Positions 26,169 to 47,947 of a DNA stretch of 64,000 bases are shown here, one piece after another. Origin of the DNA: Alistipes sp. (GTDB lineage Bacteria; Bacteroidota; Bacteroidia; Bacteroidales; Rikenellaceae). The notes under the pieces are model-generated. The model searched no databases and was not told the DNA's origin. It saw only the letters and a program-made list of their open reading frames with translations. The stretch's first letter is position 1. The number at the start of each line of letters is the position of its first letter. The translations under genes were made by a program, and so were the position numbers. The DNA lies in contig JAGBEH010000007.1 of NCBI GenBank assembly GCA_017937125.1, forward strand, positions 1 through 64,000, given 5' to 3'.

Positions 26169-27239
26169 ATGACTGAAACGGACAAAGATATTGATTTACT
26201 TATAAGTAAGTATGCAGACGGAACATTGACGCCGGTCGAGGCGATCGGTTTGGCCGAATGGGTCGAGCGGTCGCGGCAGAATGCCGTGCGTTTCCGTCGT
26301 ACGCTGCGGGCGATAGAGGATAAGGGTACGACGACGTCCGATGCCGTGTCGTTCTGGCAGCGTTTGTCGCAGGAGCGGCAGCCGTCGCAGAGGACTGTCG
26401 GCAGGTTCGCGGCAATGGCTGCGGCGATGAAGCGGGCGGGCGGTGCGATGTTATCGGCGGCAGCTGTCGGCGCCGTCGTATGCGTATCGGTAATCGCGGC
26501 ATATCTCTTCGCGGAATACGGAGGGGCGTCGTCGCACTCCGCGTCGTTGAAACCCGTCGCAGACGAGCGTCTCGCCGAGACGGTTTATAAGGCCCCTTGC
26601 GGCGAGAGACTGACGGTCGTGCTGCCCGACAGCACGAAGGTGGTGCTCAACTCCGAAGCGAAATTGACGCTCGACGGCAGTTTCGGCACTTCGGACCGCC
26701 GTGTGAAGTTGGACGGCGAGGCATATTTCGATGTGGCGAAGAATCCCGCCAAGCCTTTTGCGGTGGAATGCGGCGACAAGGAATACATCGTGCGCGGCAC
26801 GTCGTTCAACATCGTTTCGTATGCCACGGACCGATATTCCGTCGTGACGTTGCATACGGGGTGCCTCGAGGCTCATATTCGCGAGGATGTCATAATGCTC
26901 AACCCCGGAGACGAACTGCGTGTGGACGACTGGCTGGGGCAGATCTCCAAGCGGACGGTAAATCTGTCGGATTCGATAGAGTGGATAGAGAGCAACAGTT
27001 TGAGTTTTACGGAGTATCCGTTGAAATTGGTCGCCAACCGATTGGCGCATAAATACAATGTCAAGATAAACATACACTGCTCGATAGAGAACATACTGTA
27101 TGACGGCCGTATCGATAACGAATCGCTGGAGGAGACGTTGAGGCTGCTGACGGTGACATCTCCCGTCCCGTTGGCTGTGACGGAGTTCGACGGAGAATAC
27201 TATGTATCGAAACGCGAGACAGTTAAAAAACGGAAATGA
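26169..27239 (+). CDS. FecR-type anti-sigma factor
   Basis: 356 residues. It has a cytoplasmic N-terminal sigma-binding part (DIDLLISKYADGTLTPVEA), one membrane helix near 95-118 (AAAVGAVVCVSVIAAYLF), a periplasmic FecR domain (PCGERLTVVLPDSTKVVLNS, GEAYFDVAKNPAKPF) and a C-terminal DUF4974-like domain ending before VSKRETV. FecR proteins sense occupancy of a SusC/TonB receptor through its STN domain and release the sigma. It is followed 32 bases later by a SusC with an STN domain, so the trio is complete. Confidence 0.95.
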   Translation: MTETDKDIDLLISKYADGTLTPVEAIGLAEWVERSRQNAVRFRRTLRAIEDKGTTTSDAVSFWQRLSQERQPSQRTVGRFAAMAAAMKRAGGAMLSAAAVGAVVCVSVIAAYLFAEYGGASSHSASLKPVADERLAETVYKAPCGERLTVVLPDSTKVVLNSEAKLTLDGSFGTSDRRVKLDGEAYFDVAKNPAKPFAVECGDKEYIVRGTSFNIVSYATDRYSVVTLHTGCLEAHIREDVIMLNPGDELRVDDWLGQISKRTVNLSDSIEWIESNSLSFTEYPLKLVANRLAHKYNVKINIHCSIENILYDGRIDNESLEETLRLLTVTSPVPLAVTEFDGEYYVSKRETVKKRK

Positions 27240-27271
27240 CTTTTGAAATATATTAACCAAACCTTGAATTT

Positions 27272-30200
27272 ATGAGAAGTTTTGCAAAAAGTGTGCAACG
27301 GGGATTTGCGATATTGCTCGCTGCGGTTTGTCTCATATCCGTACAGACGGGATATGCGGCTGCACCGCAGGGCGACCGTAAGATCTCCGTTTCGGTTAAG
27401 GATATGCCGTTGCGCGAATTTCTTGCCGAAATCGAACAAAAGAGCGGCTGCTCGTTTTTCTACAGCAGCTCCGTCCTCGATAACGCGCGCAACGTGACTA
27501 TCGATGCGAAAGACCAACCGCTGAACGATGTCCTGCATCGTGTTTTCGACGGCACGGGACGTACTTTCGAGTTTGTCGGCGACAAGATCGCCATAAAGCC
27601 CGTCGCGCATCCCGAGCAGCAGGCTGCCGCCGCTGTCGATACGGGTGTGCCGACGTCCGACAAGTCGGTGAAAGTGCCCGAGAAACCGCATACGGTGACG
27701 GGTACGGTGCTCGACGAGAAAGGCGCTCCGATGGGCGGAGTCGGCGTCCTGATAGTGGGAACGTTGCAGGGTGTAGTCACCGATATTAACGGAAAGTATT
27801 CGATCAAGGCGTCGCCCAGCCAGGAACTACAGTTCAGTTTCCTCGGTTATAAGGACGAGATAGCGAAGGTCGGGTCGCGTACCGAGATCAATATCTCTAT
27901 GGTAGACAGTGCGCAGGCTTTGGAGTCGGTGGTGGTTACCGCTCTCGGTATGAAGCGCGACGAAAAGTCTCTCGGTTATGCCGCCACGAAGGTGGACAGC
28001 GAGCGCTTCTCCAATGCCGCCACCTCGTCCAACTGGCTCAGCGGCCTTTCGGGACAGGTTGCGGGTCTGGCTATCGACAAGTCCAACTCGGGCCCAGGCG
28101 GGTCTATGCGCGTTACGCTTCGCGGCGAGTCGTCGGTGGATCTGACGAACAACGGCGCGCTGTTCGTCATCGACGGCGTACCTATGTATAACACTTCGAC
28201 CGCATCCACGGCCGGCGGCGACGATTCCACCTTCGCGATCGACTACGGCGACGGTACGAGCGACGTGAACCCCGACGACATAGAGTCGGTGACGATCCTC
28301 AAGGGACCTGCCGCGACTGCGCTTTACGGTTCGAATGCCGCCAACGGCGCCATTATCATTACGACCAAGTCGGGCGAGAAGCAGGAGTCGTCGCTGAGCG
28401 TTTCGTACACCGCAAGCGTGATGTTCGAGACCGTCGCCACCTCTCCCGATCTCCAGTACGAGTACGGTCAGGGGTCCACTCCCGATTATTACTATTATTT
28501 ACGCAATGCAGATGCGAACCGCGGTTCGGGTTATCATCCCGTGCCTGCCTACTCTTCGACGGCGAGCCTCGAATCGTGGGGCCCGCGTATGGACGGATCG
28601 TTGCAGTACCAGTATTACGACGACAGACGTATGATCGGCGGATCATTGGACGAAAACGGTGATTTCCGCCGTACGGCCACGCCGTACGTAAGCCGCGGCG
28701 ACTGGTTCAAGGACTATTTCCAGACGGGCTATACGGTGACCAACACCGTGTCGCTGTCGGGACGCATAAACAAGAACAATACGTTGCGCGTGACGCTGAG
28801 CGATTACCGCAACGAGGGCATAGTCCCCAATACGGCCAACAACAAGCAGTTCATATCGTTCAAGACGAGCAGCAAGATTACCAAATGGTTCTCGGCTTCC
28901 ACATCGCTGAACTATCGCCGCCAGCATTGCGACAACATCCCCACATCGTCGGGATACGGTTCTACGGCCATAATGTACGGCTTATGGACTTATGCGCCCA
29001 ACGTCGATATGAGATGGCCGAGCCGCTATTGGCTTGAGGGACAGGAGAACATCCAGCAGGACACGTCGTTGTCGGGAGGCAAGAACAATGCCTATTTCCT
29101 TGCGAACGAGTGTATCAATACGCAGGCTCGCGACCGTGTCTACGGAAATGTCAAGTTCGATATTACGCTCTACAAAGGGCTTACGCTGATGTTGCGCGGA
29201 GGTATCGATACCAACAAGGATTTCCGTACGCAGCGTCAGGCGACCTCCACGCAGGCCAATCCCGACGGCTGGTATCGCGAGCAGAACATCTCGTCGATGC
29301 AATATACGGGAGATTTCCTCCTCAAATACGACCGCCGTCTGGGTACGGAGTTCAATATCACGGCCAATTTGGGAGGCAGCATCCTGAACCAGACCTATCG
29401 CCGTCAGGCGCAGACCGCCGACAAACTCAAGCAGGCGGGCGTATATACGCTGGCCAATTCGCTCGGCGAGATCAAGGTAGACAATTACGGCTACGAGCGC
29501 CAGACGAACTCGCTCTATGCCCTCGTCCAGTTCTCGTGGCGCAATGCGCTGTTCATCGATGTCACGGGTCGAAACGACTGGTCGAGTACCCTGCCTGCGG
29601 GCAACCGCTCCTATTTCTATCCTTCGGTTTCGGGCAGCGTCGTGCTGAACGACCTTTTGGATTTCGGAAAGACGGGCGGCCTCATCAACCTTATGAAGAT
29701 TCGCGCTTCGTGGGCGCAGGTGGGACACGATACGGCTCCTTACCGTATCGCCGACTATTTGTTGAGCACCAAGTTTCCCGGCGGTTCGACCACTCCGACC
29801 ACCAAGTCCAACAGCGACCTCAAGCCCGAGATAGTTACCTCGTGGGAGGTGGGTTTGGATTTGAGGATGTTCCGCAACCGCTTGAGTCTGGACGTGGCCT
29901 ATTATGACGGCAAGTCCAAGAACCTGATCGCCAATATGCCGCTGTCCTATTCCACGGGTGCGAGCAGCGTCTATACCAATGCGGGTACCATCCGCAACTA
30001 CGGTGTCGAGGTTACCGCTTCGGGTACGCTCATCAAGACCAAGGATGTGGACTGGCGCGTGGGCGTAAACTGGTCGATGAACCGCAACAAGGTCCTTTCG
30101 CTGGGCGAGGGCATAGACCAGTGGATCGTGGCTCGCTACTCTTCGCACGCGCTGATGACTGCCTACAAGGGCAGCTCGCTGACGTCTATGTACGGCAAGG

Positions 30201-30883
30201 GTTACAAGCGCGCTCCCGAAGGCTCGTATGTTATCCAAAGCGACGGAAGTATGAAGGACGTGTCGGGACAGATCGTTATGGACAAGCAGGGCAAGCCTCT
30301 GACGGACGAGGAACTGACATACATAGGCGATTGCAGCCCGAAATGGCGCGGCGGATTCAACACGTCGGTAGCGTGGAAGGGATTGAAGGTGTCGATAGCG
30401 TTCGACGGACAGTTCGGCGGCCACGTGTTCTCCTACACCAACTGGGTGCTGAACTATCGCGGCAAGGGTACTGCGACGCTGGCAGGCCGTGAGGGCGGTA
30501 TGGTTGCCAAGGGCGTGGTATTGCTGCCCGACGGGAACTACAAGATTAACGACTATGCTATTCCGCGCAAGGATATTTCGGAATATTACCATTCGGCTTA
30601 CAGCAACACCAATGCCGAGGCCAATTTCGTAAGCACGCAGTTCCTCAAGTTGCGTGAGGTGCGTGTGGAATACGCTCTGCCCAAGAAGGTGCTGGCCAAG
30701 ACGAAAGTCATCAAGGGGCTGACCGTGGCGGTGTTCGGCAACAATCTGGTTTGCTGGAGCAAGTTCCCCGGTTGGGATCCCGAGGGTGTGTCGATGCGCG
30801 GCAGCGCCATCGTTCCCGGTTTCGAGATCCTGCAAATGCCCTCGGGCGCCCAGTACGGCGGAAGCATAAAGATCACATTCTAA
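27272..30883 (+). CDS. susC-like: SusC/RagA-family TonB-dependent transporter with STN signalling domain
   Basis: 1203 residues. Signal peptide (about 1-29), STN domain (about 35-105, KISVSVKDMPLREFLAEIEQ), a carboxypeptidase-regulatory-like domain (about 138-215, VTGTVLDEKGAPMGGVGVLI), the TonB plug (VVVTALGMKRDEKSLGYA; ESVTILKGPAATALYGSNAA) and a beta-barrel ending in an aromatic residue (SIKITF). It imports oligosaccharide-sized ligands across the outer membrane with the SusD partner downstream. The STN domain fits signalling to FecR. Confidence 0.97.
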   Translation: MRSFAKSVQRGFAILLAAVCLISVQTGYAAAPQGDRKISVSVKDMPLREFLAEIEQKSGCSFFYSSSVLDNARNVTIDAKDQPLNDVLHRVFDGTGRTFEFVGDKIAIKPVAHPEQQAAAAVDTGVPTSDKSVKVPEKPHTVTGTVLDEKGAPMGGVGVLIVGTLQGVVTDINGKYSIKASPSQELQFSFLGYKDEIAKVGSRTEINISMVDSAQALESVVVTALGMKRDEKSLGYAATKVDSERFSNAATSSNWLSGLSGQVAGLAIDKSNSGPGGSMRVTLRGESSVDLTNNGALFVIDGVPMYNTSTASTAGGDDSTFAIDYGDGTSDVNPDDIESVTILKGPAATALYGSNAANGAIIITTKSGEKQESSLSVSYTASVMFETVATSPDLQYEYGQGSTPDYYYYLRNADANRGSGYHPVPAYSSTASLESWGPRMDGSLQYQYYDDRRMIGGSLDENGDFRRTATPYVSRGDWFKDYFQTGYTVTNTVSLSGRINKNNTLRVTLSDYRNEGIVPNTANNKQFISFKTSSKITKWFSASTSLNYRRQHCDNIPTSSGYGSTAIMYGLWTYAPNVDMRWPSRYWLEGQENIQQDTSLSGGKNNAYFLANECINTQARDRVYGNVKFDITLYKGLTLMLRGGIDTNKDFRTQRQATSTQANPDGWYREQNISSMQYTGDFLLKYDRRLGTEFNITANLGGSILNQTYRRQAQTADKLKQAGVYTLANSLGEIKVDNYGYERQTNSLYALVQFSWRNALFIDVTGRNDWSSTLPAGNRSYFYPSVSGSVVLNDLLDFGKTGGLINLMKIRASWAQVGHDTAPYRIADYLLSTKFPGGSTTPTTKSNSDLKPEIVTSWEVGLDLRMFRNRLSLDVAYYDGKSKNLIANMPLSYSTGASSVYTNAGTIRNYGVEVTASGTLIKTKDVDWRVGVNWSMNRNKVLSLGEGIDQWIVARYSSHALMTAYKGSSLTSMYGKGYKRAPEGSYVIQSDGSMKDVSGQIVMDKQGKPLTDEELTYIGDCSPKWRGGFNTSVAWKGLKVSIAFDGQFGGHVFSYTNWVLNYRGKGTATLAGREGGMVAKGVVLLPDGNYKINDYAIPRKDISEYYHSAYSNTNAEANFVSTQFLKLREVRVEYALPKKVLAKTKVIKGLTVAVFGNNLVCWSKFPGWDPEGVSMRGSAIVPGFEILQMPSGAQYGGSIKITF

Positions 30884-30896
30884 TTCGGAGGAGGAT

Positions 30897-32564
30897 ATGA
30901 ATATGAAAAAATATATTGTAAAATCGATTATGGCTGCCGTTGCGCTGACTGCGGCGGGATGTGCCAATTTCGACGAGATGAACGAAAACCCGTATGCGGT
31001 CTACGATGCCCCTGCGGAGTCGTTCGTGCAGCCTATGCTTTATAATACGGAGTACGCACTCGTGCAGCGGACGTACGACCTCGTTGCCGAACTCGTTCAG
31101 TACAGCGTGAACCGAAGCACCGAGATAACTTCGCAGATGAACTACAACTACTCCATCACCGAGTCGGTAGTGGCGTCGCTGTGGCAGAATCTCTACCTTC
31201 AGGCAGGAAATGCCGAGTATATGCTCGAAACCGCCGAAAAGGAGAGCAACCCTGCGATGAAGGGTGTGGCTATGGTTATGAAGGTGCTGATTATGTCGAA
31301 CATAGCCGACACGTACGGCAATGTTCCCTATTTCGACGCCGCTAAGATCGCGTCGCATAAGGGCGACATATCCTACACCACGACATACGACGAACAGAAC
31401 CTGATATACGCCGATATGCTGCGTCTGCTGGAGGATGCGAACCGCGCATTCGGCGAGGCGAACGAATTAGTGAGTGCGGGGACGCTCAGCACGGCCGATT
31501 TCAGCCCTCTGTGCGATTATATGTACGAAGGCGATGTCGATAAGTGGCGCCGCTTCGGCAACTCGCTCTATCTGCGGCTGCTTATGCGCGTGTCGCTGAA
31601 GGTGGAGGAAGAGGGCGGACTCATATCGCTGGGCGAAGAGTACGGCGAGATGAACGTCCGCAACAAGATAGCAGAACTTTACGACTGCTTCCTTTCGGGC
31701 AGCGGCGATTATCCTATGATGCGCGGGCGTTCCGATGCGGCTCTGGTAGGGTTCAGCAAGTACAATTCCGCGCTTTACACGCCGTTCTATTCGACAACGT
31801 CGGGTATATGGAACAGCGTGGTCGCCTGCAATACGCTTGTGGATAAGATGTACGACAAGGCTGCCGGTTTCGAGGACCCGCGTCTGAATTTCTATTTCAC
31901 CAAGCCGATGGGCGCTCCGACGCAGTGGCTTAAGAGCGACCTCGACGAGTTTATGGAGACCAACGTCTCTTCGCTGGGCAACTCGCTCGTGGGACGTTAT
32001 CCGCGCGGCATAAAGGTTACGGGCGATTATATCTCCGATTTGCAGAATGCCGACCACTATGCCCTGATGAACTACTCGGAGCTGCTCTTCATCTTCGCCG
32101 AGGCCGGGCAGCGCGGATGGCTCAACATAGCCTATCCGCAGGTCAAGCAACACTACCTGCGCGCCGTTACCGAGGCCGTGCTCGAATGGCACCCTTATGT
32201 CACCGAGTCGTCGGAGAATGTCGTCAAGTTCATCGATACGCTCTCGTCGGAGATCGATGCCGACAATGCGTTGGACAAGATTCTGACCCAAAAGTGGATT
32301 TCGCTCTTCTGGGTGGGCATCGAATCGTGGTGCGACTATCGCCGCACGGGCTATCCGTTGCTCAAGACCAACGGACCCGCTGCCGAGAACAACGGTATCC
32401 TGCCTACGCGTATGCGTTATCCTGCCGATGAGAAATACCGCAACCCGAACAGTTATGCCGATGCCGTAGGCGGATGGCTCGGCGGTTCGAACAATATGCA
32501 GACGGATGTTTGGTGGGCTTCGACGGCCGAGAGCCGTGCGATGCGGTTGAAAGGACGTCAATAA
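30897..32564 (+). CDS. susD-like: SusD/RagB-family surface lipoprotein
   Basis: 555 residues. A GGAGGAGG lies 4 bases before ATG 30897. The lipoprotein signal (MAAVALTAAGC) is followed by NFDEMNENPY, typical of the SusD-like-2 group, and TPR-type helices (SLWQNLYLQAGNAEYML; VLIMSNIADTYGNVPYFDA). It captures ligand at the cell surface as lid of the SusC barrel. It starts 13 bases after susC. SusD-like-2 proteins are often found in loci for non-plant or host-type substrates, but ligand cannot be read from sequence. Confidence 0.95.
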   Translation: MNMKKYIVKSIMAAVALTAAGCANFDEMNENPYAVYDAPAESFVQPMLYNTEYALVQRTYDLVAELVQYSVNRSTEITSQMNYNYSITESVVASLWQNLYLQAGNAEYMLETAEKESNPAMKGVAMVMKVLIMSNIADTYGNVPYFDAAKIASHKGDISYTTTYDEQNLIYADMLRLLEDANRAFGEANELVSAGTLSTADFSPLCDYMYEGDVDKWRRFGNSLYLRLLMRVSLKVEEEGGLISLGEEYGEMNVRNKIAELYDCFLSGSGDYPMMRGRSDAALVGFSKYNSALYTPFYSTTSGIWNSVVACNTLVDKMYDKAAGFEDPRLNFYFTKPMGAPTQWLKSDLDEFMETNVSSLGNSLVGRYPRGIKVTGDYISDLQNADHYALMNYSELLFIFAEAGQRGWLNIAYPQVKQHYLRAVTEAVLEWHPYVTESSENVVKFIDTLSSEIDADNALDKILTQKWISLFWVGIESWCDYRRTGYPLLKTNGPAAENNGILPTRMRYPADEKYRNPNSYADAVGGWLGGSNNMQTDVWWASTAESRAMRLKGRQ

Positions 32565-32582
32565 CAGTTAAAATTATTGGAT

Positions 32583-35500
32583 ATGAAACGATATATAACG
32601 GGAATATTCCTTTTGGCAGTCTCGCTATTCGCGGCAGGCTGTACCGATGATACGACCGCATCCGACAGCGAGCGCGAGTGGGTCGATATCTCTATCGCAT
32701 ATACTTTGGACGGAAGCGAGGTGCGCTCGCTGCCGTTCAATTCGTCGAGCCGAAGCGTCAGAATCGACGTCGAACTCAACAACCAGAATCTGTATTGGAC
32801 CGTAGAGTCCGATGCGGACTGGTGCTCGGTAGTCGAGGAGACGCACCGCGGCAACGGCGGTTTTACGATCAACATACAGGCCAACGAAGAGTTCTCCGAC
32901 CGTACTCCCGCCACGCTTACGTTCGTCGCGGGGCAGTACCGCGGCCATACAATTTCGGTTACGCAGTCGGGTAACGTCTTCATCCTGAATCAGATTTACG
33001 CCATAGGCTCGAAACTGACGGGCAGCACCGAAATCAGCGTCTCCGTTCAGGAGGGCGTTGAATGGGATGTCGTCGCGGAACCGTGGCTCAAGGCCGTAAA
33101 GGGCGATTCCGTATCGGAGAACGGTATGGTGACTACGGCTCTCAATATCGAATGGGAGGCGAACGGCTCGTCGTCCCGTTACGGTTCCGTAGGACTCATC
33201 CGTAACGGCGAGGAGGAACCCGATTCGCAGTTCAACGTTTTCCAGTTCGGCGACGAGATGCCCTACGATGACGAGAACGTGATTCTGCTGCCTTCGAAAA
33301 GCGCCGGGGCTTTCGAAATCAAGGTGCCGGCACGCAGCGTCGAGAGCGTGGTATGCCCCTCGTGGATTACCTGGACTGCGACCGATAATGCCGACAATAC
33401 GACCTCTTATATCTTCACATCCGAAGATAATCCGAGCGATACGCGCAACGTTCGCGAGTCGAATATCTCCCTGAAGATTCAGGACAAGGAGGGCGCCGTC
33501 GCTCTGCCCCTCGTGAAACAGGAGTTCTATTCGGTGCAGGGCATAACTTCGGCGAACGGCCTTAAGCTTTTCTCGCAGACCGTGAATGCGGGCGGCGATA
33601 CGAGCGATTGGGTCAAGGACGGAAAAGCCGTACTGCTCAACAATATCGATATGTCGCAGCTGACGGGCGAATGGGTTCCGATAGGTACTGCCGAGAATCC
33701 CTTTACGGGCGTATTCGACGGCCGGTACCGCAAGATTATGAATCTGACCTCTTCGAGCCCGCTGTTCGGCGTGTGCGAGGGCGCGGAGCTGAATAACATC
33801 ATCATCGACGAATCGTCGGTGTTCGTGTCGAACGAAGAATACACTTCCGATTATGTCTTGGCGCCGTTGGCGAGGTCTTTCGCCGACTGCACCGTTACGG
33901 AATGTTCGAATTATGCCGCCGTTACGATGAACGGAACCACGGGTAATTCCAATACGAATACGTATGTGAGCGGATTGGTAGGCCGCACGTATGACGGGAC
34001 TACGTTGTCCAAATGCGAGAACTACGGCCGTGTCGAGATTTCGGACAAGTGTATGACTGCATTCCAGAGCGGCAATTTCTATCTGGGCGGCATAGTCGCC
34101 TCCAACGGCGGCGTCATCGAGGAGAGCAACAATTACGGAGCCTTGTCGGATGCGGGAGCCACCCGCGACCATTATATCGGCGGTATCGTGGGACTTTCCA
34201 CGGGTGCCGTGCGTTCGTGCGTGAACGGCGGCGCGCTGTCCGTATCGGCGCATCGTACGGTGAACGGACAGCTTGACCATTGCCGCTGGATATATATGGG
34301 CGGTATTGTCGCTCGTCAGAATGCCGGCGAGGTATCGGGCTCGAAGAACGATGCTCCGCTGAAATCGACGTCGGATGTCAAGATGCAGAAGCTGGGCGGC
34401 GTGATAGGCTATATCGCGGCCGCGAACCCTGTCTTGGCCGATAATACCGATACCGAGAAGGGAACCGTTTCGGTGGACGGTACAGGCACCCAGCACGGCG
34501 GCGGTCGTGCCGTATCGATAGGCGGTCTGTACGGAGAATTGTACAATCCTTTGACTTTCGACTTCTCTAACGATAAGAGTTCTGCCGCAGGGGCGATAAC
34601 CTGTGCAAACGTGGAGCCTTCGACAGGTACGTCGAATATATTTGTCGGCGGACTCATAGGCTTGGTCACTATGCCCGATGAAACGCCGAACGATGTCGCT
34701 CCCGTGACGATTATCAAGCCGTCGTGGTCGTGCAGCATAAAATTCGTTTTCTCGAAAGTCAATACGGGAATGTTCGTATGGGGTGCCGGCGGCATACTCG
34801 GCGGCGCGAAGCGTGAAATAATCATTCGCGATGCGGTGTCGTCGGGCGACATATCCGTTGCGACCAGCAAGAGTTATAACTTGCAGGGTAAGACTGCCGG
34901 TTTGGGAGGCATAATAGGATATGCGGCCGCAGGAGCGCGGATAAGCGGTTGCAGCAATGAAACACCCGTGCAACAAATAGTGGAATGCAAGAAATCCAAT
35001 TCGTATCCCCACTATTTCGGAGGAATCGTCGGTGTCGTCGTGAGCGGCCATTCGGAAATTACGAATTGTACGAATAATGCCGTTGTGGATAACCAGCATT
35101 ACAATAATAATCCCTACAACAATGCCTGCAATGCGTCGGGCGGTATCGTAGGCGGGTATTTGTCGAGCGATGCGGATGACGGAACTCTGAAGATCGCGGA
35201 ATGCGTCAATACCGGCGCCGTCAAATCGAAGCGCGGTATGGCGGGCGGCATAATCGGCTACGGCGTGAATGCGGATATCGAGAATTGCGAGAATACCGGC
35301 AGTATGGCCAACGGCGAACGTTCGTATATCGGCGGCATAGCAGGTGTGCTGGATCGCTCTTCGGTGAAAGACAGCAAGGCCGTTTGCGCCGTGGCGGGTT
35401 CTACCGCGGGTTCGGAAAAGTACAACGCGGGCGGTATCTGCGGTTTGATCGTACGTGCGACGACGCTCTCCGATTGCTCGTATTTCGGCAATGTGTCCTA

Positions 35501-38900: not shown

Positions 38901-38947
38901 GCGATGCGACGCTCGAGAACAACTATATTTGGGACGGCAACGAATAG
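35909..38947 (+). CDS. Surface lipoprotein with fimbrillin-like N-terminus and GLUG repeats
   Basis: 1012 residues. The lipoprotein signal (MAVGAMLLAAGC) is followed by about 240 residues that resemble a fimbrillin/Mfa-like module (GSRKVYWSNGDRIAVNG; LPYKAVYPASAYTDANTVTL; FRHLCAVVKISLTAD). From about residue 330 it is GLUG-type repeats (GGLVGRLIEG, YLGGIVGLNDGNV, GGIAGYAQYVS). It looks like a beta-solenoid on a fimbrillin base, displayed at the surface. It shares repeat architecture with the gene at 32583, so the pair may be paralogous binding proteins of one locus. Confidence 0.85.
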   Translation: MRNYIGFMAVGAMLLAAGCAKDDTVATNVVGGKTIIGAGISETRTSLGESVDGSRKVYWSNGDRIAVNGTVSSALENVAEQSTSAEFVFDGVLSLPYKAVYPASAYTDANTVTLPAVQAKGDDSFGRDAEPMVAYADAGNNLLFRHLCAVVKISLTADADADEIAYVEFKGNGSEQVSGAFSVDYENATITAASTAEDDKTVRANVERALSSDGGTNVYVVVPAGTYENGFTVKVVDTYGHYMEKSTTSAQTLVAGQILAMPSFAFVPTGTITGVEIGSAAELIAFAKAYNNLEYADVDPLLVTLTADITFDEATNAAFEPIGGFQADGVTTNYFNGRFNGNGKTIKNYASASPVFAYCGSNGIIYDLTMDNTCSIAVDKAQTYVGALVGYHKGVLRNCSSSATITIGGFSAAESMTVGGLVGRLIEGTVEECSMNGSIEIPAEFSSAADVNVGGFVGYNSNANGVVRNSTFAGSLNWEGVLVPIETGSTGVTKGWRLCMGGIAGRIAGRVEGCNTTAEAIVNASGNSTYTTAVGGMVGVSNENAAVDHCINNAKVTTKMQRSNSDGLNDASRYEYLGGIVGLNDGNVSNSENTAFVQTRSASKSISVGGVVGYARAAGSVTGCKSSGEITARTSGEKPYGSRYLILGGVIGSVATESIADISNEGPVTAARLESASGATLAVGGCIGQATVNISGAGKILNTGKVSMEIETTSFNWLAEGGVIGYATASVSEVENRGAVEFKQTGIMKNTYTGGIVGMNNNKPITIRSCTNSGEVKRVIDASGVSKNSGNCLGGIVGGIVGVESAVMNCTNTGAIFQGMWNNNLTNAIPTTTAIAGGIVGAATGKGDAARVMISGCNATTGTLYAKRGFIGGIAGYAQYVSINDCRNEMSTASNIAAYTGGIAAYLLSSSVENCVCKATLNSTSGSPYLAGIASYVDGTSQVSSSKYFGNLVSGVAALVAGGIAADTVSGAVISDCGFGGTIDGVEMTELSQACGDSDATLENNYIWDGNE

Positions 38948-40382: not shown

Positions 40383-41233
40383 AAGGGAAAACCATAATAT
40401 TGTTCTGCCTGTCGGTATTCGCGCTTGCGGTATCCACGGGCGAGGCGCAGGCCAGGCGACCCCGCGGTTGCGCCGTGAAGCTGTGTACCTACAATATCCG
40501 CGGCGATATGCCGCGCGACCGCAATACGGTCAATGCGTGGAGCCTTCGGCGGGATTCGTTATGCGGCATCATCCTGCGCAATGACTTCGACATCGTATGT
40601 ATGCAGGAAGTGCTGGCGGGGCAGCTGGCGGACATAGAGCGCGCTACGGGTTACGCCTTCGTCGGCAGCCGCGGATTTTACAACCCCGTTTTCTATAAGG
40701 CCGACCGTTTCGAACTGCTTCATACCGAGACCTTCTGGCTGTCGGAGTCTATGGAGCCGTTCTCGAAAGGTTGGGATGCCAAGTACGACCGTTATTGCAC
40801 GTGGGCGCATTTCCGCGACCGTCGCTGCGGCGAGGAGTTTATGGTGTTCAACACCCACCTCGACCATCGCGGCGCCGTGGCCAAGCGCGAAGGGGCGGCA
40901 CTGGTTTGCCGCGAGGCCGAACGTATCGCCGACGGCCGTCCGTTTTTCATCTGCGGCGATATGAACAGTTTCGACACTACCGATGCCTATGCGCAGTACA
41001 CGGAACGGCTGTACGATGCCCGCAAGGCGGCGGCGAACGTCTCGGGGCCTGTCGGTACTGCCCATAATTTCGGCAAGGTGGAGCCTGTGCGCATAGATTA
41101 CATATTCGTAAACGACCGCGTAAAGGTGATGTCCTATGACGCCGATGACGAGAGTTATCCGAACGGGATGTATCCGTCGGACCATTACGCCGTATTCATA
41201 GATGCGGTATTTACAAAAAAACATAAACGATGA
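40379..41233 (+). CDS. Exported endonuclease/exonuclease/phosphatase (EEP)-family phosphoesterase
   Basis: 284 residues overlapping the transporter by 4 bases (ATGA). A signal peptide (MKGKTIILFCLSVFALAVST, cleavage near AQA) exports it. EEP motifs are complete: LCTYNIRGD, CMQEV (metal Glu), NTHLDH, GDMNSFD, RIDYIFV and YPSDHYAV (catalytic His). EEP enzymes split phosphodiesters or phosphomonoesters with a metal; members act on nucleic acids, inositol phosphates, sphingomyelin or other phosphodiesters. In this setting it probably trims a phosphorylated glycan or glycerophospho compound in the periplasm. The substrate is inferred. Confidence 0.88.
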   Translation: MKGKTIILFCLSVFALAVSTGEAQARRPRGCAVKLCTYNIRGDMPRDRNTVNAWSLRRDSLCGIILRNDFDIVCMQEVLAGQLADIERATGYAFVGSRGFYNPVFYKADRFELLHTETFWLSESMEPFSKGWDAKYDRYCTWAHFRDRRCGEEFMVFNTHLDHRGAVAKREGAALVCREAERIADGRPFFICGDMNSFDTTDAYAQYTERLYDARKAAANVSGPVGTAHNFGKVEPVRIDYIFVNDRVKVMSYDADDESYPNGMYPSDHYAVFIDAVFTKKHKR

Positions 41234-41955
41234 TTGCAACTGATATTTTCGAAGGGCTGAAAGGACGGCTCATAGTGTCGTGCCAGGCGGAAGAAGGGTC
41301 TCCGTTCGATTCGCCCGAAGGTGTGTGCGCATTCGCCGAGTGCGCCGTTACGGGCGGTGCGGCCGCCATACGGTCGTGCGGAGTCGAGAAGACCGATTAC
41401 CTGATACGCCATATTCCGCTGCCCGTAATCGGGCTTACGAAGTCGCATTTCGACGACGGGTTCGTGCGCATAACGGGTTCGTTCGCGGAGGTGGAGCAGC
41501 TGATAGGGATCCGCACGCCGCTGATTGCCGTGGACGGAACTTTCCGCCCGCGCGAAGGGGCGCTGACGGGGCCCGAATACATCCGCACAATAAAAGAGCG
41601 GTGGCCGAACGTTAAGATAATGGCCGACATTTCTACCTCAGAGGAGGCCGTGGCGTGCCGACAGGCGGGTGCCGACTGCGTATCGACTACGCTCTGCGGA
41701 TATACGCCGCATACGGCGGCCGAGGCTGCGGGCGGCCCGTCGGTGGAGATGTTGAGACGCTGCGTCGAAGCGCTGCCCGGCTGTCCCGTCTTCGCGGAGG
41801 GGCGTTACAATACCCCTGCCGAGGCTGCTTCGGCTATCGAAGCGGGGGCGTGGGCCGTGGTCGTCGGATCGGCCATTACGCGCCCGCACCTTATTACGCG
41901 CTGGTTTGCCGACGCATTGGAACGGAGTAGAGGAAAAAACTTGCAGCAGTTATGA
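41230..41955 (+). CDS. nanE: N-acetylmannosamine-6-phosphate 2-epimerase-like (NanE)
   Basis: 241 residues, the standard length. It begins GRLIVSCQA and has GGAAAIRSCGV, VIGLTKSHF with the catalytic Lys71, MADISTSEEA, DCVSTTLCGYTP, FAEGRYNTP with catalytic Glu190, and VVGSAITRPHLIT. This is the full NanE signature. It converts ManNAc-6-P to GlcNAc-6-P in the cytoplasm. It overlaps its neighbours by 4 bases on both sides, so it is in one transcript with the transporter, EEP and mutase. No nanA or nanK is present, so it is not a sialic acid operon; the ManNAc-6-P may be imported directly. Confidence 0.92.
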   Translation: MIATDIFEGLKGRLIVSCQAEEGSPFDSPEGVCAFAECAVTGGAAAIRSCGVEKTDYLIRHIPLPVIGLTKSHFDDGFVRITGSFAEVEQLIGIRTPLIAVDGTFRPREGALTGPEYIRTIKERWPNVKIMADISTSEEAVACRQAGADCVSTTLCGYTPHTAAEAAGGPSVEMLRRCVEALPGCPVFAEGRYNTPAEAASAIEAGAWAVVVGSAITRPHLITRWFADALERSRGKNLQQL

Positions 41956-43388
41956 ATATTTTTTTCGGAACCGACGGTTGGAGGGCATTGCTCGACTCGG
42001 AGATCAACGCGGAGAGCGTGGCCGTCGTGGCTCAGGCTTTCGCCGATTACATAAATTCATCGTGCGGAAACGACAGTCCCGTGCGTGTGGCGGTGTCGTA
42101 CGATACGCGCCGCAACTCGCATCTGTTCGCGTCGATATTCGCCGAGGTGCTGTCGGGCAACGGCATAACGGCGTTGTTGTCGGACCGTGTTACGCCGACG
42201 CCCGTGCTGTCGTTCGCCACACGCACTATGGGGTGTGCGGCGGGTGTGATGATAACGGCGTCGCATAATCCGCCGTCGTATAACGGCATAAAGTTCAAAT
42301 CCCCGTTGGGCGGCCCGTTCTCGCTCGAACAGACGCGGGCGGTAGAGAAGTTCCTCGGAGCTTCGCAGATCGTGCGCTCGGACGCGAATGTGGCGGAGAC
42401 CGATTTTATGTCCGACTATACGGCACAGATAGAGCGTCTCATAGATTTCGGGGCCATTCGCAGGTCGGGACTTGCGGTATTGATCGACAGTATGGGAGGT
42501 GCGGGTCTTACGCTTACGCAGGAGCTGCTGCGCAAACACGGCTGTAAGGCCGATACCATCTTCGGCGAACCGTCCGAAACTTTCCACGGGCGGCTGGCCG
42601 AACCTATCGAGAAGAACCTGCGGCCTCTGTCGGAGGCGCTGCGCGGCGGCGGTTACGCTTTCGGCGCAGCTACCGACGGCGATGCCGACAGGCTGGGAGT
42701 TTGTCTCGATACGGGGGAGTGGCTGTCTGCGCAGAATACCATCCTGCTGATCGTCGATTATCTCAAGCGCGTGAAGCGTGCCGAGGGCGGCATAGTGAAG
42801 ACGTCGTCGGTGTCGGACAAGATACGTGTGGCTTTCGAATCGCCGCAGACGCCCGTTTACGACGTGCAGGTGGGGTTCAAGTACATAGCCGACATAATGT
42901 ATGAACATGAGATAGCTTTCGGCGGCGAGGAGAGCGGCGGCTTCGGCTACGGAATGCATATCCCCGAGCGCGACGGCATATTTTCGTCGCTGCTGATGCT
43001 TGAAATGCTGGCGGTGTCGCCTTATCGCAAACTCTCCGAATACCTTGCCGACCGTCGGCGCGAGTTGGGGGAGATATGTTACGACCGTATAGATATGCAC
43101 TATGACCGCGAGGACAAGAACGATCTGCTGCCGTGGTTGTGCGAAGACCGGCCGGCGTCGCTGTCGGGATTCGCGGTGCGCGATATAAAGACTTTTTTGA
43201 GCAGCCGCGGCATTGTGAACGGTGTGAAGATGATTTTCGAGGGGGATTGCCGCTGGCTGCTTATTCGCAGTTCCGAAACCGAGAACATAATACGTTTCTA
43301 TGCCGAAGGGCAGGACGACGCGGAGGTGGCGTCGCTGCTTGCGGAAGGCGGGAAACTGTTGCAAAGAATATCAATGTCAAAACGATGA
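41952..43388 (+). CDS. Alpha-D-phosphohexomutase (phosphoglucosamine/phosphomannomutase-like)
   Basis: 478 residues. The four functional parts are present: phosphoserine loop ITASHNPPS (Ser104), metal loop TDGDADRLG (about 241-249), sugar-binding GGEESGG (324-330) and the phosphate-binding loop RSSETENIIRFYAE. It moves phosphate between C6 and C1 of a hexose or amino sugar. Next to NanE the likely substrate is GlcNAc-6-P/GlcNAc-1-P or a mannose or glucose equivalent; specificity is not decided by these motifs. It overlaps nanE by 4 bases. Confidence 0.9.
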   Translation: MNIFFGTDGWRALLDSEINAESVAVVAQAFADYINSSCGNDSPVRVAVSYDTRRNSHLFASIFAEVLSGNGITALLSDRVTPTPVLSFATRTMGCAAGVMITASHNPPSYNGIKFKSPLGGPFSLEQTRAVEKFLGASQIVRSDANVAETDFMSDYTAQIERLIDFGAIRRSGLAVLIDSMGGAGLTLTQELLRKHGCKADTIFGEPSETFHGRLAEPIEKNLRPLSEALRGGGYAFGAATDGDADRLGVCLDTGEWLSAQNTILLIVDYLKRVKRAEGGIVKTSSVSDKIRVAFESPQTPVYDVQVGFKYIADIMYEHEIAFGGEESGGFGYGMHIPERDGIFSSLLMLEMLAVSPYRKLSEYLADRRRELGEICYDRIDMHYDREDKNDLLPWLCEDRPASLSGFAVRDIKTFLSSRGIVNGVKMIFEGDCRWLLIRSSETENIIRFYAEGQDDAEVASLLAEGGKLLQRISMSKR

Positions 43389-43395
43389 ATTTTAT

Positions 43396-45084
43396 ATGAA
43401 ACGCTTCTATTTGTCAATATTTTTCGTCCTGCTTCTCGTCTCGTGCGGCAAGGATACGGGCATCGATCCCGACGGCGGGGGCGTCAAGCCTGAAGGCGAA
43501 GTTACGGTCCGCGGAATAATTTACGACAACGGCGGCAACGTTATGCCGAACGTCGTCGTGTCGGACGGCTTGAACTGTGTCAAAACCAAGAGCGACGGAC
43601 GTTTCGAATTGGCGAGCGACCTTACGAAGGCCAAGTTCGTGTTCGTAGTGCAGCCGTCGGGATACAGGTCTGCCGTCGAAAAGGGCAGGGCGCAGTATTA
43701 CAAGCGGCTCGGCGAGGGAGATGCCCAGCAGATAAACGGAGTTTACCAGTTGCGCTTTACCCTCGAAAAGATTGCGGGCGATGCCGATCGCTTCACGATG
43801 GTTATGTCGGGCGACCCGCAGCCGCGGGCGCGCACGGCGGGGTACGATAAGATAGGATACCATTCGCTCGATTGCAGTGCCGATATGTGGCGCGATATGA
43901 AGGAGTATGCGGCCACCGTCACCGACCGTCCCGTCTACGGCGTGGTTCTCGGCGACCTGGTTCACGAGAATATGTCGCTGTATAAGGACTATCTCGACGG
44001 TATCGCCTCGCTCGACTATGCCACTTACAGCGTCATAGGCAACCACGACAACGATACGAATGCTGCCGACGATGATTCGGGAGCAGCCTATTTCGAGCAG
44101 AACCTCGGGCCGCGCAACTACTCGTTCAACGTCGGGCGGTTCCACGTAATCGTCCTCGACAATCTGATTATGAAGCTCGACGGCTCGAAGAAACTCAAAG
44201 AATACGATCAGGGGCTTACCGACGACATATGGACGTGGCTGCAAAACGATCTTAGATTCGTGGACCGTTCGACGCCGCTTATCGTCTGCTCCCATTCGCC
44301 TATGTTCAGGCTCGCGTCCGGCAGCGACCGCTACGCATCCTCGGGAACCAAACACGGCGCCGACTATGCCAATCTGCTGTCGAAATACAAGAAGGTGTAC
44401 GCGTGGGCGGGGCACGTGCACAATTCGTTCAACTTCGTGTATGACGATACGGCCGAATATCCCAATATCGAGGTACATACCGTTTCGAGGTCTACGGGTG
44501 CACTGTGGATAAACGAGTGGTTGTGCGAGGACGGCACTCCGCGCGGCTACGTGGTCGTGGACATCGACGGCGAGAATGTAGAGTGGAAGTTCAAGCCCGT
44601 CGCATACCAGAGCAGTACGGCTGCGGGCGCAACGCCGTCATACAAGTATCGCGACTTCGTATTTACCGACGGCGTCGCCTACCGCAACGGCAAGCGTCTC
44701 GATTCGTCATATCAGCTGCGTGCCTATCCGCGCGGCGCATACGGCGACAAATACGTCTATGCGAACGTGTTTATGTACGACGAGAAGTGGGGGCAGGTAA
44801 AGTTCACGTCGGAGTCGGGCGGCACGACCGTGATGACTAAAGTGCCCAAGGCAAGTGCCGCAGAGATCAAGAACGGCACCGCGAAGTCGTACGACGCGGC
44901 TTACAAAGAGGTCTTCGATTTCTATAAGACCAATAATTCGACGTTGAACGGCAACAGCGGTTTTTCGATGAGCTACGAACTGCCTCACCTGTTCCGATGC
45001 TATGCGGCCTCCGAGAGCGATCGCGGTACGGTTACCGTTACCGACCGTTTCGGCAACGAATATTCGACTACGGTGTCGTGGTAG
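43396..45084 (+). CDS. Calcineurin-like phosphoesterase lipoprotein with MetallophosN/C domains
   Basis: About 562 residues from ATG 43396, the start of a lipoprotein signal (MKRFYLSIFFVLLLVSC). Order: a small beta-sandwich N-domain (about 35-125, TVRGIIYDNGGNVMPNVVVSDG), the metallophosphoesterase core with SGDPQPR, VLGDLVHEN, IGNHDND, CSHSPMF and AGHVHNSF (about 135-345), and a C-terminal beta domain (RDFVFTDGVAYRNG, TVTVTDRFGNEY). The metal ligands of the fold are all present. It is lipidated and exported, so it acts on an extracellular or periplasmic phosphoester. It starts 7 bases after the mutase stop. Confidence 0.9.
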   Translation: MKRFYLSIFFVLLLVSCGKDTGIDPDGGGVKPEGEVTVRGIIYDNGGNVMPNVVVSDGLNCVKTKSDGRFELASDLTKAKFVFVVQPSGYRSAVEKGRAQYYKRLGEGDAQQINGVYQLRFTLEKIAGDADRFTMVMSGDPQPRARTAGYDKIGYHSLDCSADMWRDMKEYAATVTDRPVYGVVLGDLVHENMSLYKDYLDGIASLDYATYSVIGNHDNDTNAADDDSGAAYFEQNLGPRNYSFNVGRFHVIVLDNLIMKLDGSKKLKEYDQGLTDDIWTWLQNDLRFVDRSTPLIVCSHSPMFRLASGSDRYASSGTKHGADYANLLSKYKKVYAWAGHVHNSFNFVYDDTAEYPNIEVHTVSRSTGALWINEWLCEDGTPRGYVVVDIDGENVEWKFKPVAYQSSTAAGATPSYKYRDFVFTDGVAYRNGKRLDSSYQLRAYPRGAYGDKYVYANVFMYDEKWGQVKFTSESGGTTVMTKVPKASAAEIKNGTAKSYDAAYKEVFDFYKTNNSTLNGNSGFSMSYELPHLFRCYAASESDRGTVTVTDRFGNEYSTTVSW

Positions 45085-45124
45085 CGGAAAACTGTTTACG
45101 GACTATTCTAAATAACCGATTTAT

Positions 45125-47947
45125 ATGAAGAAATTATTTTTTAGTTTATGGCTTTCGCTCTGTATCGCCGCCGCCTATGCGGGCGGTATAGCCACGTCGA
45201 AAGATCTGGTTGCCTTCGCTGCGGCCTGCAATGCGGGGCAGAGTATCGATCAGTGGAAAAACAGCGAGGGCACGGTATGTCTCGAGGCCGACATAGATAT
45301 GGCTAAAGAGAAGAAATTCATTCCCGTAGCCTCGTTCGGCGGCGTATTCGACGGCTGCGGCTATGCCATTCTCAACTGGAAGGCACAAAAGGGATTGTTC
45401 TCGGAGGTCGCGGCGGGCGGTGTCGTGCGCAACCTGCGCATCGATGCGTCGTGCTCGATGAAGGCCGTGAACAAGTCCGAAGAGTATGCCGTGGGATTTA
45501 TTGCCGACATCAATTACGGCATAATCGAGAACTGCGAAAACCACGGGGCGATAACCCACAAGTCTACCTATACGGACAGCGACTCCTATATCGGCGGTAT
45601 CGTAGGCTCGAACAGGTTCTCGATACTCCGCTGCCGCAATTTCGGCGACATATCGTCGTCTGCGGTGTCTACGCTCCAGAAGGGTGAGATTGCCGCCCAT
45701 ATCGGAGGTATCGCCGGCGGCGGCTATGCGAAAACCGAAGCGGCTCCAGTGATCGCGTGGTGCGAGAATGCGGGCGACATAACGTACGACGGCGATTTCC
45801 CTGCTTGCAATGTGGGCGGTATCATCGGCTGCGGCTTCAGGGTCCCCGTGAAGTTTTGCGTAAATCGCGGCAATATCAAGGTCAATACGGTGCAGGGCGA
45901 ACCCAAAGATCCTAATGTTCAGCCGCAGGCGCGTACCGGCGGCATTGCGGGTTTGACTAAAGGCGATGTTATGTGTTGCGACAATTTCGGCACCGTTGCG
46001 TCGTCGGGTACGCACGCTCCCAATGTGGGCGGTGTGTGCGCTGTACCGCACGCGGCTGTAGTCGTGGGCGATTGCGTCAATTACGGCAAGGTCGTGGTTT
46101 CGAACGAAACGGCGGGAGCCGTAGGTGGCATATCGGGCGGAGTGAACCGTCCCGCACGTATTCGCGGATGCGTCAATCGCGGCGAGGTGCGTTTCGACGG
46201 TGCGAGTTTCAATAAACGTACATCGGTCGGCGGCATCGTGGGCGCCGTTACGGTAAAGCGTGATGCTACTGCGGGAACATACGTGCGCAACTGTGTGAAT
46301 TACGGCAAAGTGTCGAGTGGTGCAGGCGGCAATAATCTCGAAAACAACGACAAGGCCATACATACGGGCGGCGTTGCGGGCTGGATGTCGGGTTCGGCGC
46401 AGGCGACGGTGATAATGCGCGACTGCGAGAATTACGGGACGGTAACCTCCGAGGGCGGTCGCCGCGGAAACATATGCGGTGCATGCACGGGCGTGCAGAC
46501 GGGCGGCGAATATGTCGATTTCTCGGCCGAGAAATCCGAGCCTATGAGCGACGGCTCCAACATCTTCGGCCGCGTCACCACGGCTGCGGGCGAGCCTGTG
46601 GTCGGCGTCGTGGTCAGCGACGGCGAGCAGTGCGTGGCCACCGACGGCTACGGGTATTATTCTATGAAGAGCGATCTGTCGAAAAAACGCTTCGTCTATA
46701 TATCGGTCCCGTCGGAGTACGAGGTTCCGTCGCTTTACGGGACGCCTCAGTTCTTTCGCCGCATAGGTCGCGGCGAGAAGGCCGTTATGGCCAATTTCTC
46801 GTTGAAGAAGCGCGGGAAGGTCGCGGATAAATATACGGTGGCGATGCTGGGCGACCCGCAGATACGTCCGTACGGGATGGACAATTCCACCGAGACTTAC
46901 CGCGATTCGGTAGCGCCCGACGTGGAGGCACTGCGCAAGGCTGCCGAAGGCGAGTTCTATGCGATCAATCTCGGCGACCTCGTGTATAACTATATGGTGG
47001 CTTACGACGATTACATCGACATCACATCTACGATAGGCTGCACGACATTCAACGTTATCGGCAACCACGATTTCGATCAGACGACGATGTTCGACAGCAA
47101 GCTGGGTACGGTGTTCTTCGAAACCTACCTCGGTCCGGTGAACTATTCGTTCAATATCGGCAAGATACACTATATCCTGCTCGACGACATAGTCTACGGC
47201 CGCAGTTCGGCGACGGCCCGTTATCGCACGGGGCTGGAGGAGGAGACGATGACGTGGCTCGAGAACGATCTGAGTTTCGTCCCCAAGAATACCACCGTAG
47301 TCGTTTGCGCCCACTCGCAGCTTTTCAAGAAGCGCGGCTCGCATTCGACTAAGAATCTGAACTATGCACGTTATTGCGCGCTGTTGTCGCAGTACGACCG
47401 CGTATATTCGTGGGCGGGGCACAACCACCACAATTACAGCTACGACTATCGCGGCAAGGGACAAGGCAAAGATAACATCTCCTGCATAATCGTCTCGCGT
47501 GCCACAGGGGCGTTGCGTCTGAACAAATATCTGAATACCGACGGTACGCCGCAGGGATATATGGTGGTCGATGTCGATGGCGGAGAGATGAAGTGGTATT
47601 ACAAGTCTGTCGGTCGGGACAAGGATTATCAGATGCGCGTATATCCTCCTTTGCGCACCGACGGGCGTTATGTTATGGCCAACATATGGAACTACGGCGA
47701 CGGCTGGAGCAAGGCCGAGTGGTGGGAGAACGGCGTGAAAATAGCCGATATGGAACAGTTCGAGGCGTCGGATCCCGATTACGAGGCGCTGTATGCCAAC
47801 GTGACGAACAAGACGACGCGCAAATATTGCGCTCCGACGAAGACACCGAATATGTTCCGCGCGGTTCCGTCTGCGGGAGCGCATTCGGGAGAGGTGAGGG
47901 TTACCGATAATTTCGGAAACGTATTCGTCTCGAAGATAGACTGGTGA
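45125..47947 (+). CDS. GLUG-repeat / calcineurin-like phosphoesterase fusion
   Basis: 940 residues with a plain signal peptide (MKKLFFSLWLSLCIAAAYA) and no lipobox cysteine. Residues about 20-460 are GLUG-type repeats (SYIGGIVGSNRFS; NVGGIIGCGFRV; TSVGGIVGAVTV). About 477-560 is the same N-terminal beta domain as in the preceding gene (GSNIFGRVTTAAGEPVVGVV). About 570-770 is the phosphoesterase with LGDPQIRP, NLGDLVYNY, IGNHDFD, CAHSQL and AGHNHHN. The rest is the C-terminal beta domain. The phosphoesterase half is a paralogue of the gene at 43396. The solenoid may present or bind the substrate. It ends the locus. Confidence 0.9.
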   Translation: MKKLFFSLWLSLCIAAAYAGGIATSKDLVAFAAACNAGQSIDQWKNSEGTVCLEADIDMAKEKKFIPVASFGGVFDGCGYAILNWKAQKGLFSEVAAGGVVRNLRIDASCSMKAVNKSEEYAVGFIADINYGIIENCENHGAITHKSTYTDSDSYIGGIVGSNRFSILRCRNFGDISSSAVSTLQKGEIAAHIGGIAGGGYAKTEAAPVIAWCENAGDITYDGDFPACNVGGIIGCGFRVPVKFCVNRGNIKVNTVQGEPKDPNVQPQARTGGIAGLTKGDVMCCDNFGTVASSGTHAPNVGGVCAVPHAAVVVGDCVNYGKVVVSNETAGAVGGISGGVNRPARIRGCVNRGEVRFDGASFNKRTSVGGIVGAVTVKRDATAGTYVRNCVNYGKVSSGAGGNNLENNDKAIHTGGVAGWMSGSAQATVIMRDCENYGTVTSEGGRRGNICGACTGVQTGGEYVDFSAEKSEPMSDGSNIFGRVTTAAGEPVVGVVVSDGEQCVATDGYGYYSMKSDLSKKRFVYISVPSEYEVPSLYGTPQFFRRIGRGEKAVMANFSLKKRGKVADKYTVAMLGDPQIRPYGMDNSTETYRDSVAPDVEALRKAAEGEFYAINLGDLVYNYMVAYDDYIDITSTIGCTTFNVIGNHDFDQTTMFDSKLGTVFFETYLGPVNYSFNIGKIHYILLDDIVYGRSSATARYRTGLEEETMTWLENDLSFVPKNTTVVVCAHSQLFKKRGSHSTKNLNYARYCALLSQYDRVYSWAGHNHHNYSYDYRGKGQGKDNISCIIVSRATGALRLNKYLNTDGTPQGYMVVDVDGGEMKWYYKSVGRDKDYQMRVYPPLRTDGRYVMANIWNYGDGWSKAEWWENGVKIADMEQFEASDPDYEALYANVTNKTTRKYCAPTKTPNMFRAVPSAGAHSGEVRVTDNFGNVFVSKIDW

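Follow-up and report, generated by a model that had tools for sequence, protein, structure and literature searches.

The window analyzed here, a 64,000-nucleotide stretch of Alistipes sp. DNA (contig JAGBEH010000007.1, positions 1 to 64,000), contained at 26169-47947 a SusCD locus composed of two modules: a SusCD-GLUG-phosphoesterase part and a cassette of four genes encoding an antiporter, an EEP-family phosphatase, the epimerase NanE, and a phosphohexomutase. With a probability of about 45%, we read this locus as a phosphosugar-harvesting system that would free and import an N-acetylhexosamine phosphate. The open reading frame list and Pfam and NCBIfam profile searches indicated that 11 plus-strand genes, from fecR to the second of two metallophosphoesterase (MPE) genes, fill the interval, and the locus is real, well delimited, and beyond a chance grouping. 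Every gene that an earlier note on this DNA had named in this interval was confirmed by a profile. The features were as follows.

25408..25983, minus strand: ECF sigma factor, the likely regulator partner, divergent from fecR (Pfam Sigma70_r2 and Sigma70_r4_2; position)
26169..27239, plus strand: FecR anti-sigma factor (PF04773 and PF16344 above cut-off)
27272..30883, plus strand: SusC TonB-dependent transporter with an STN signaling domain (TIGR04056, 639 bits, cut-off 368; STN, plug, and barrel)
30897..32564, plus strand: SusD lipoprotein of the SusD-like_2 group (PF12771, 220.9 bits)
32577..35711, plus strand: GLUG1, BACON/GLUG lipoprotein, presumed surface glycan-binding protein (PF13004 and PF07581; lipobox by eye)
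35909..38947, plus strand: GLUG2, GLUG-repeat lipoprotein, presumed surface glycan-binding protein (PF07581, 79.5 bits; lipobox by eye)
39099..40382 (the frame opens at 38982), plus strand: MFS antiporter of the organophosphate:phosphate type (best match in the Protein Data Bank [PDB], GlpT 1pw4)
40379..41233, plus strand: EEP-family phosphatase, export judged by eye (PF03372; PDB 3g6s and 4c1r)
41230..41955, plus strand: NanE, N-acetylmannosamine-6-phosphate 2-epimerase (NF002231, 237.8 bits, cut-off 189; active-site residues)
41952..43388, plus strand: alpha-D-phosphohexomutase (PF02878-02880 and PF00408; NCBIfam)
43396..45084, plus strand: MPE1, lipoprotein metallophosphoesterase (PF16371 [MetallophosN/C pair] and PF16370 above cut-off)
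45125..47947, plus strand: MPE2, GLUG-like repeats and metallophosphoesterase (PF16371 and PF16370 above cut-off; repeats by eye)
47968..48003, plus strand: terminator-like hairpin with a T run (1 found versus 0.6 expected in shuffles; a loose pattern, the 0.6 being the chance expectation over the 401 bases scanned)

In the proposed mechanism, SusC, SusD, and the GLUG lipoproteins would bind a phosphodiester-bearing glycan, and binding would be signaled via the STN domain, FecR, and the ECF factor. Outside the cytoplasm, MPE1, MPE2, and the EEP phosphatase would cut phosphoester bonds and free an N-acetylhexosamine phosphate, most likely the 6- or 1-phosphate of N-acetylmannosamine (ManNAc-6-P or ManNAc-1-P), which the antiporter would import across the inner membrane, probably against phosphate. 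The mutase would interconvert the 1- and 6-phosphates, NanE would convert ManNAc-6-P into the 6-phosphate of N-acetylglucosamine (GlcNAc-6-P), and a NagB-type deaminase fused to a PIG-L deacetylase-like domain, encoded elsewhere in the genome (L076), would lead on to fructose-6-phosphate. The ManNAc phosphates are indicated because imported GlcNAc phosphates would make NanE needless. A phosphodiester-linked ManNAc glycan is our best guess for the substrate, and phosphomannan or teichoic-type polymers may be the substrate instead. The cell compartments, the substrate, the direction of flow, and every catalytic activity in this scheme are predicted from sequence.

The composition of the locus agreed with such a scheme in several respects. 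SusC and SusD genes were adjacent, as in SusCD loci generally, and the ECF gene, FecR, and the STN domain on SusC made up the full ECF/FecR/STN signaling set. Both the MetallophosN and the MetallophosC domain scored above the Pfam cut-off in MPE1 and in MPE2. None of the 11 locus proteins matched a glycoside-hydrolase (GH) family (Pfam, E <= 0.001; no CAZy library was used), and the carbohydrate-active enzyme (CAZyme) that characterizes a SusCD polysaccharide-utilization locus (PUL) was accordingly not found among them. Neither a nan lyase nor a nan kinase was found by Pfam among the locus genes beside NanE, and the arrangement is thus not that of a sialic-acid operon; elsewhere in the window's genome, two DHDPS-family genes both fell short of the nanA cut-off, a threshold reached by only 1 of 14 control genomes. 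The earlier note was right about both absences, that of glycoside hydrolases and that of nanA and nanK.

NanE passed its curated model. The active site of Staphylococcus aureus NanE comprises Gln11, Arg40, Lys63, Asp124, Glu180, and Arg208, with Tyr149 contacting the acetamide group, according to the available part of PMC8482478. In an alignment with structure 5zkn, Q19, R48, K71, D133, E190, and R218 of the window NanE corresponded to the six named residues, and Y158 was matched to Tyr149 by position only. All seven residues were the same in each of 12 aligned cassette NanEs (13 are known; L042 was left out), and the predicted active site is intact. The mutase kept the motifs TASHNPP, DGDADR, and GEESGG and scored 278.6 bits against the GlmM model TIGR03990, below the cut-off of 439. 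Two other mutases were present in the window's genome, one of which (L023) is GlmM (TIGR03990, 534 bits); this separate above-cut-off GlmM ruled out the locus mutase as the cell's only GlmM. In two loci (L034 and L048), NanE relatives (51-55%) lay amid genes that appeared by eye to be for NeuB-type nonulosonic-acid synthesis, and NanE is perhaps biosynthetic there.

The best PDB match of the antiporter was GlpT (1pw4; E 5.7e-40, most of the length aligned), and two arginines and one histidine, which we take to be phosphate-binding residues, were conserved in all nine antiporters aligned. The EEP phosphatase matched 3g6s (157.6 bits), whose record names no activity, better than 4c1r (114.2 bits), its sole solved relative with a named activity, which was deposited as a mannosyl-6-phosphatase. 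On visual inspection, the EEP phosphatase and the MPEs keep the catalytic motifs typical of their families; MPE1 had no PDB sequence match at E <= 0.01. The placement of a phosphosugar cassette inside a phosphoesterase locus supports the phosphosugar-uptake idea.

A possible catabolic exit is the NagB-type fusion gene, which passed NF002557 (glucosamine-6-phosphate deaminase-like) with 858.9 bits (cut-off 384); its C-terminal half weakly matched BshB deacetylases and, on that weak match, is taken as a putative PIG-L domain. Matches to the fusion were found in all 12 cassette genomes searched, as two frames in Bacteroides nordii, but the gene may be common in the order, and the support is therefore permissive rather than specific. 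Canonical NagA was above its cut-off in 3 of the 12 cassette genomes, a cut-off passed by 7 of 14 control genomes; the window's genome is ~90% complete. In the B. nordii draft (G453), the fusion (C92:68096-69996) and the cassette mutase (L038:10729-12152) each span two frames, as a result of either draft errors or real breaks.

NanE was found in few genomes. A scan of genome contigs for NanE yielded 37 loci. Among 101 relatives' genomes, the gene was found in the window's own genome, in G025 (86%), and in G030 (37%); the other 34 of the 37 matching genomes gave partial 24-30% matches in frames of 449-716 amino acids and were set aside, on their similarity to IMP dehydrogenase, as probable IMP dehydrogenases. 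The order yielded NanE in 5 of 393 genomes (E <= 1e-10), the phylum in 21 of 395 (E <= 1e-30), and the family of B. nordii in 2 of 301, namely, B. nordii and one partial match; the counts among 101, 393, and 395 genomes include the window's own. The cassette was common to 13 Bacteroidales loci, the window included, with hosts such as Candidatus Alistipes excrementipullorum, B. nordii, B. salyersiae, a Paludibacter, and further Bacteroidales. The mutase adjoined NanE or lay one gene away in 13/13 of these loci, the antiporter did so in 12/13 (exception, L044), and an EEP gene was adjacent in 8/13. The 13 cassette NanEs formed one clade with an SH-aLRT support of 95 in a 52-row tree made by a quick method with no bootstrap, from which L110 was dropped for a stop inside the matched stretch. 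The cassette is thus conserved as a unit. The Paludibacter locus repeated the combination, with one MPE, three EEPs, and one GDPD, and GDPD genes were close to the cassette in L039 and L043. SusC was within the flanks of 5 of the 10 informative cassette loci (the window, L038, L049, L030 with L031, and L032 with L033), with L029, L037, and L042 left out of the count for their short contigs. A scan of five B. nordii and B. salyersiae proteins with Pfam revealed no hidden glycosidase among them; they were a SusD, an AXE1-type esterase, and proteins of the beta-propeller/Ig type, only some of which had a secretion tail.

The other module likewise recurred on its own. Of 268 genomes in the family, 18 contained an MPE1 match at E <= 1e-60, and 10 loci could be followed from a complete or partial SusD through to the last MPE (G046, G865, G870, G900, G921, G056, G926, G053, G857, and a paralogue on contig C4 of the window's own genome). 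GLUG2 and MPE1 were neighbors in all eight loci with two GLUG genes, and in the window the four cassette genes sit exactly between them. The locus is therefore a composite whose two modules are separable in both directions: the comparison of gene order in Alistipes and other Bacteroidales that the earlier note had proposed bore out each module as a recurring unit but found them apart. The simplest reading is that the lineage comprising the window and G025 gained the cassette by insertion, although the cassette may instead have been lost elsewhere in the genus. In G025 (L037), matching SusC (82%), SusD (79%), and FecR genes were on another contig than NanE and MPE pieces were on a third; its locus is probably whole though spread over unjoined contigs. 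Two loci of the same genus (G053 and G857) ended with EEP and antiporter genes without NanE or mutase (Pfam on G857 only). The paralogous locus (G000 contig C4, ~177464-201774; L166 and L181) comprised an ECF gene, FecR, SusC, SusD, two GLUG genes, and three MPEs, 28-54% identical to the window locus genes, and is possibly a phosphomannan locus. A mannose-6-phosphate isomerase gene near the G046 locus was rejected as a locus member, because that PALP-ManA pair also accompanies the G056 locus, in the absence of GH3, which marks the gene as a chromosomal neighbor.

A sister NanE-mutase cluster was found in other classes of the phylum (L045, L046, L108-L118, L120, L121, L124, and L125). Its genes encode an unknown transporter, hydantoinase-A, FAD oxidoreductases, NanE, a mutase, a protein weakly matching HAD, and often GH38 and GH94 enzymes. 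Among 14 regions read, hydantoinase-A accompanied NanE in 13, and a mutase related to that of the window (52-57% identical) was present in 10. GH38 was found in 6 genomes (strong matches) and GH94 in 8, and a gene for an NAGPA-like phosphodiester glycosidase followed GH94 in 4 genomes; it was named by Pfam in L111 and identified in the other three by tblastn at 56-80% identity, a partial piece of one having no Pfam match. Relatives of the antiporter and the EEP phosphatase were not detected in this cluster. The GH94 phosphorylase probably makes a sugar-1-phosphate there for the mutase and then NanE, and the cluster fits an order of sugar-1-phosphate to 6-phosphate to epimer because NanE and the mutase sit with GH94 and the NAGPA-like gene.

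Several results weigh against the phosphosugar-harvest reading. NanE and the mutase were absent from 10/10 SusCD-phosphoesterase loci over the stretches read, some of which reach a contig end soon after, so the SusCD-phosphoesterase part needs no ManNAc chemistry. SusC was not detected in ~20 kb each at L039, L040, L041, L043, and L044; the earlier note had held that its reading would be refuted by finding the transporter-epimerase-mutase block unlinked from the SusCD genes in relatives, and taken literally this is so in 5 of the 10 informative cassette loci. The SusCs of the four nonwindow cassette loci were only 24-30% identical to the window SusC, and the SusDs examined (B. nordii and G269) best fit another Pfam group; the surface receptor is therefore not conserved with the cassette. 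The antiporter fell below every curated cut-off (GlpT, 158.8 versus 632.55 bits; UhpT, 127.8 versus 497; PgtP, 135.1 versus 750), the GEESGG loop of the mutase is more typical of glucose/mannose mutases than of N-acetylglucosamine mutases, and the paralogous C4 locus runs on into GH3 and GH38 genes. The harvest and intact uptake of a phosphosugar that the earlier note had put forward is partly supported: the glycosidase-free SusCD arrangement, the phosphoesterases, the organophosphate-type antiporter, and the intact NanE site all fit, with the qualification that the locus is a composite whose modules are found apart. The substrates that the note suggested, a teichoic-acid linkage unit or a ManNAc-phosphate capsule, are candidates among others.

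The same evidence can be read in other ways. Mannose glycans stay in play because of the GH38 genes in the sister cluster and the GH3 and GH38 genes behind the paralogous C4 locus. A locus for phosphomannan or phosphorylated N-glycans, in which the esterases would free mannose-6- or mannose-1-phosphate, the antiporter would import it, the mutase would turn the 1- into the 6-phosphate, and NanE would have drifted to a hexose-6-phosphate epimerase or act on a minor amino sugar, would also suit the mannosyl-6-phosphatase annotation of 4c1r and the resemblance of the GEESGG loop to hexose mutases. This is nonetheless unlikely, as the whole active site of NanE is preserved, along with the tyrosine that corresponds by position to the acetamide-contacting residue, the EEP phosphatase is nearer to 3g6s than to 4c1r, and the window locus has no glycoside hydrolase by Pfam. 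Teichoic acid is a less probable target still. Here the esterases would attack chains of glycerol phosphate or ribitol phosphate, the antiporter would take up glycerol-3-phosphate or a sugar phosphate, and NanE and the mutase would recycle linkage-unit ManNAc. The GlpT match of the antiporter and the GDPD genes of L039 and L043 point that way, and the NAGPA-like and GH94 genes of the sister cluster would suit a ManNAc-GlcNAc-1-P linkage unit. The unit presumably holds little ManNAc, and not as a 6- or 1-phosphate without a kinase, which Pfam did not find among the locus genes. The calcineurin-like PhoD does degrade teichoic acid in Bacillus (as given in the available part of PMC11488536), but in Pfam the window MPEs match MetallophosN/C rather than a PhoD family.

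Two further readings concern what is gained from the sugar phosphate. Phosphate scavenging, in which SusCD and phosphoesterases would mine organic phosphate and the sugar would be incidental, has a precedent in the Flavobacterium phosphate utilization system (Pus), and in 8 of the 10 related loci the stretch from SusD to the last phosphoesterase, and the position next to it, lacked any importer gene or sugar-converting gene of the cassette. It is improbable for the window locus, where the importer and the two cytoplasmic sugar-phosphate enzymes of the cassette would serve carbon use and where the predicted control genes are the usual substrate-sensing set of ECF, FecR, and STN. Salvage toward UDP-GlcNAc would have the mutase turn imported ManNAc-6-P or GlcNAc-6-P into GlcNAc-1-P rather than have it burnt. 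The fixed pairing of NanE and mutase in all 13 cassette loci and the sub-cut-off score of canonical NagA in 9 of 12 cassette genomes are in its favor; the NagB-type fusion, matched in 12/12, could give a catabolic exit, and with a separate GlmM in the window's genome, salvage is very unlikely.

Among known systems, Pus is the nearest kind to the window locus. It consists of SusCD clusters with phosphoesterases and no CAZymes, is induced by phosphate depletion, and combines phosphomono- and diesterases, according to the available part of PMC8115612. The window locus has the same colocalization of SusC and SusD with phosphoesterases (MPE1, MPE2, and EEP) and no glycoside hydrolase, but it adds the ECF/FecR/STN genes, a sugar-phosphate importer, and two sugar-phosphate enzymes; that part of PMC8115612 does not mention NanE or the mutase for Pus. 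The claim in the earlier note that the locus is of no described type needs a caveat, since SusCD clusters with phosphoesterases are described as Pus; the NanE cassette was not described in titles or abstract openings among the matches listed in a literature search that had most subscription papers outside its scope. The NanE of the S. aureus sialic-acid pathway is of the same family, above cut-off, with the same active-site residues (PMC8482478, available part), but the window locus lacks nanA and nanK, and the partners of its NanE are the antiporter, the EEP phosphatase, and the mutase. The NanO/NanU system likewise ties SusCD-like capture to an amino-sugar route (PMC3969230, title and abstract opening), whereas phosphoesterases rather than a lyase are present in the window locus. 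Glycoside hydrolases drive mannan PULs, unlike the window locus, and 4c1r, an EEP-family phosphatase as well but the lower-scoring match, is one that we take to come from a Bacteroides yeast-mannan PUL. Of the GlpT/UhpT/PgtP antiporters, GlpT offered the best solved match, with the window protein below each curated cut-off, and the sister cluster shares NanE and a related mutase but not the antiporter or EEP relatives. The locus is a variant of the SusCD system, set apart by its import-and-conversion cassette.

The junctions from the antiporter gene to the last gene were -4, -4, -4, 7, and 40 bases, and the gaps upstream of the antiporter gene, from fecR onward, were 32, 13, 12, 197, and 151 bases. 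Transcription as one operon is no more than likely because the 197- and 151-base gaps leave room for inner promoters. The next downstream gene with Pfam support lies on the opposite strand. The antiporter probably starts at ATG 39099 and not at GTG 38982, because the B. nordii protein begins at the matching place (by eye), and MPE1 probably starts at 43396 and not at 43300, and therefore does not overlap the mutase. The gene overlaps reported in the earlier note accordingly hold at the three -4 junctions but probably not at MPE1, 7 bases past the mutase. In the N-terminal half of MPE2, GLUG-like repeats were seen by eye; Pfam was silent in the window protein and called them in the G046 relative. 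That the EEP phosphatase, both MPEs, and the GLUG proteins are exported is a judgment made by eye, without a predictor. The G+C content was 56.0% in the locus versus 53.2% in the remaining window, a difference not telling for foreign origin.

Outside these genes, a 44-codon open frame at 35745-35879, in the 197-base gap between the GLUG genes, is possibly a small protein (by eye). Upstream of the locus, 22249-23379 encodes a GxDLY/Lipase_GDSL_3 esterase, a 26% relative of which lies, in L031 and L033, with the SusCD genes that stand opposite the cassette. Downstream, 48065-54984 holds a PDDEXK nuclease gene on the minus strand and a UvrD-type helicase-nuclease gene on the plus strand, separated by a DUF2807 gene. 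At 1-507 and 23641-23712 are the terminal part of a 23S rRNA gene, a 5S rRNA gene, and one for tRNA-Gln.

Tentatively, and with less confidence than we place in phosphosugar harvest itself, the locus may represent a glycosidase-free system for phosphodiester-linked ManNAc glycans in gut Bacteroidales, in which intact import would save a kinase step and the cassette would move between unrelated SusCD loci. The NanE clade near an antiporter and a mutase serves as a marker for the cassette, and B. nordii and B. salyersiae are cultured hosts. If the reading is true, CAZyme-based PUL prediction would miss such loci, and gut Bacteroidales could live on phosphoglycans, such as capsules, teichoic-type polymers, or phosphomannan, through cleavage of phosphoester rather than glycosidic bonds.

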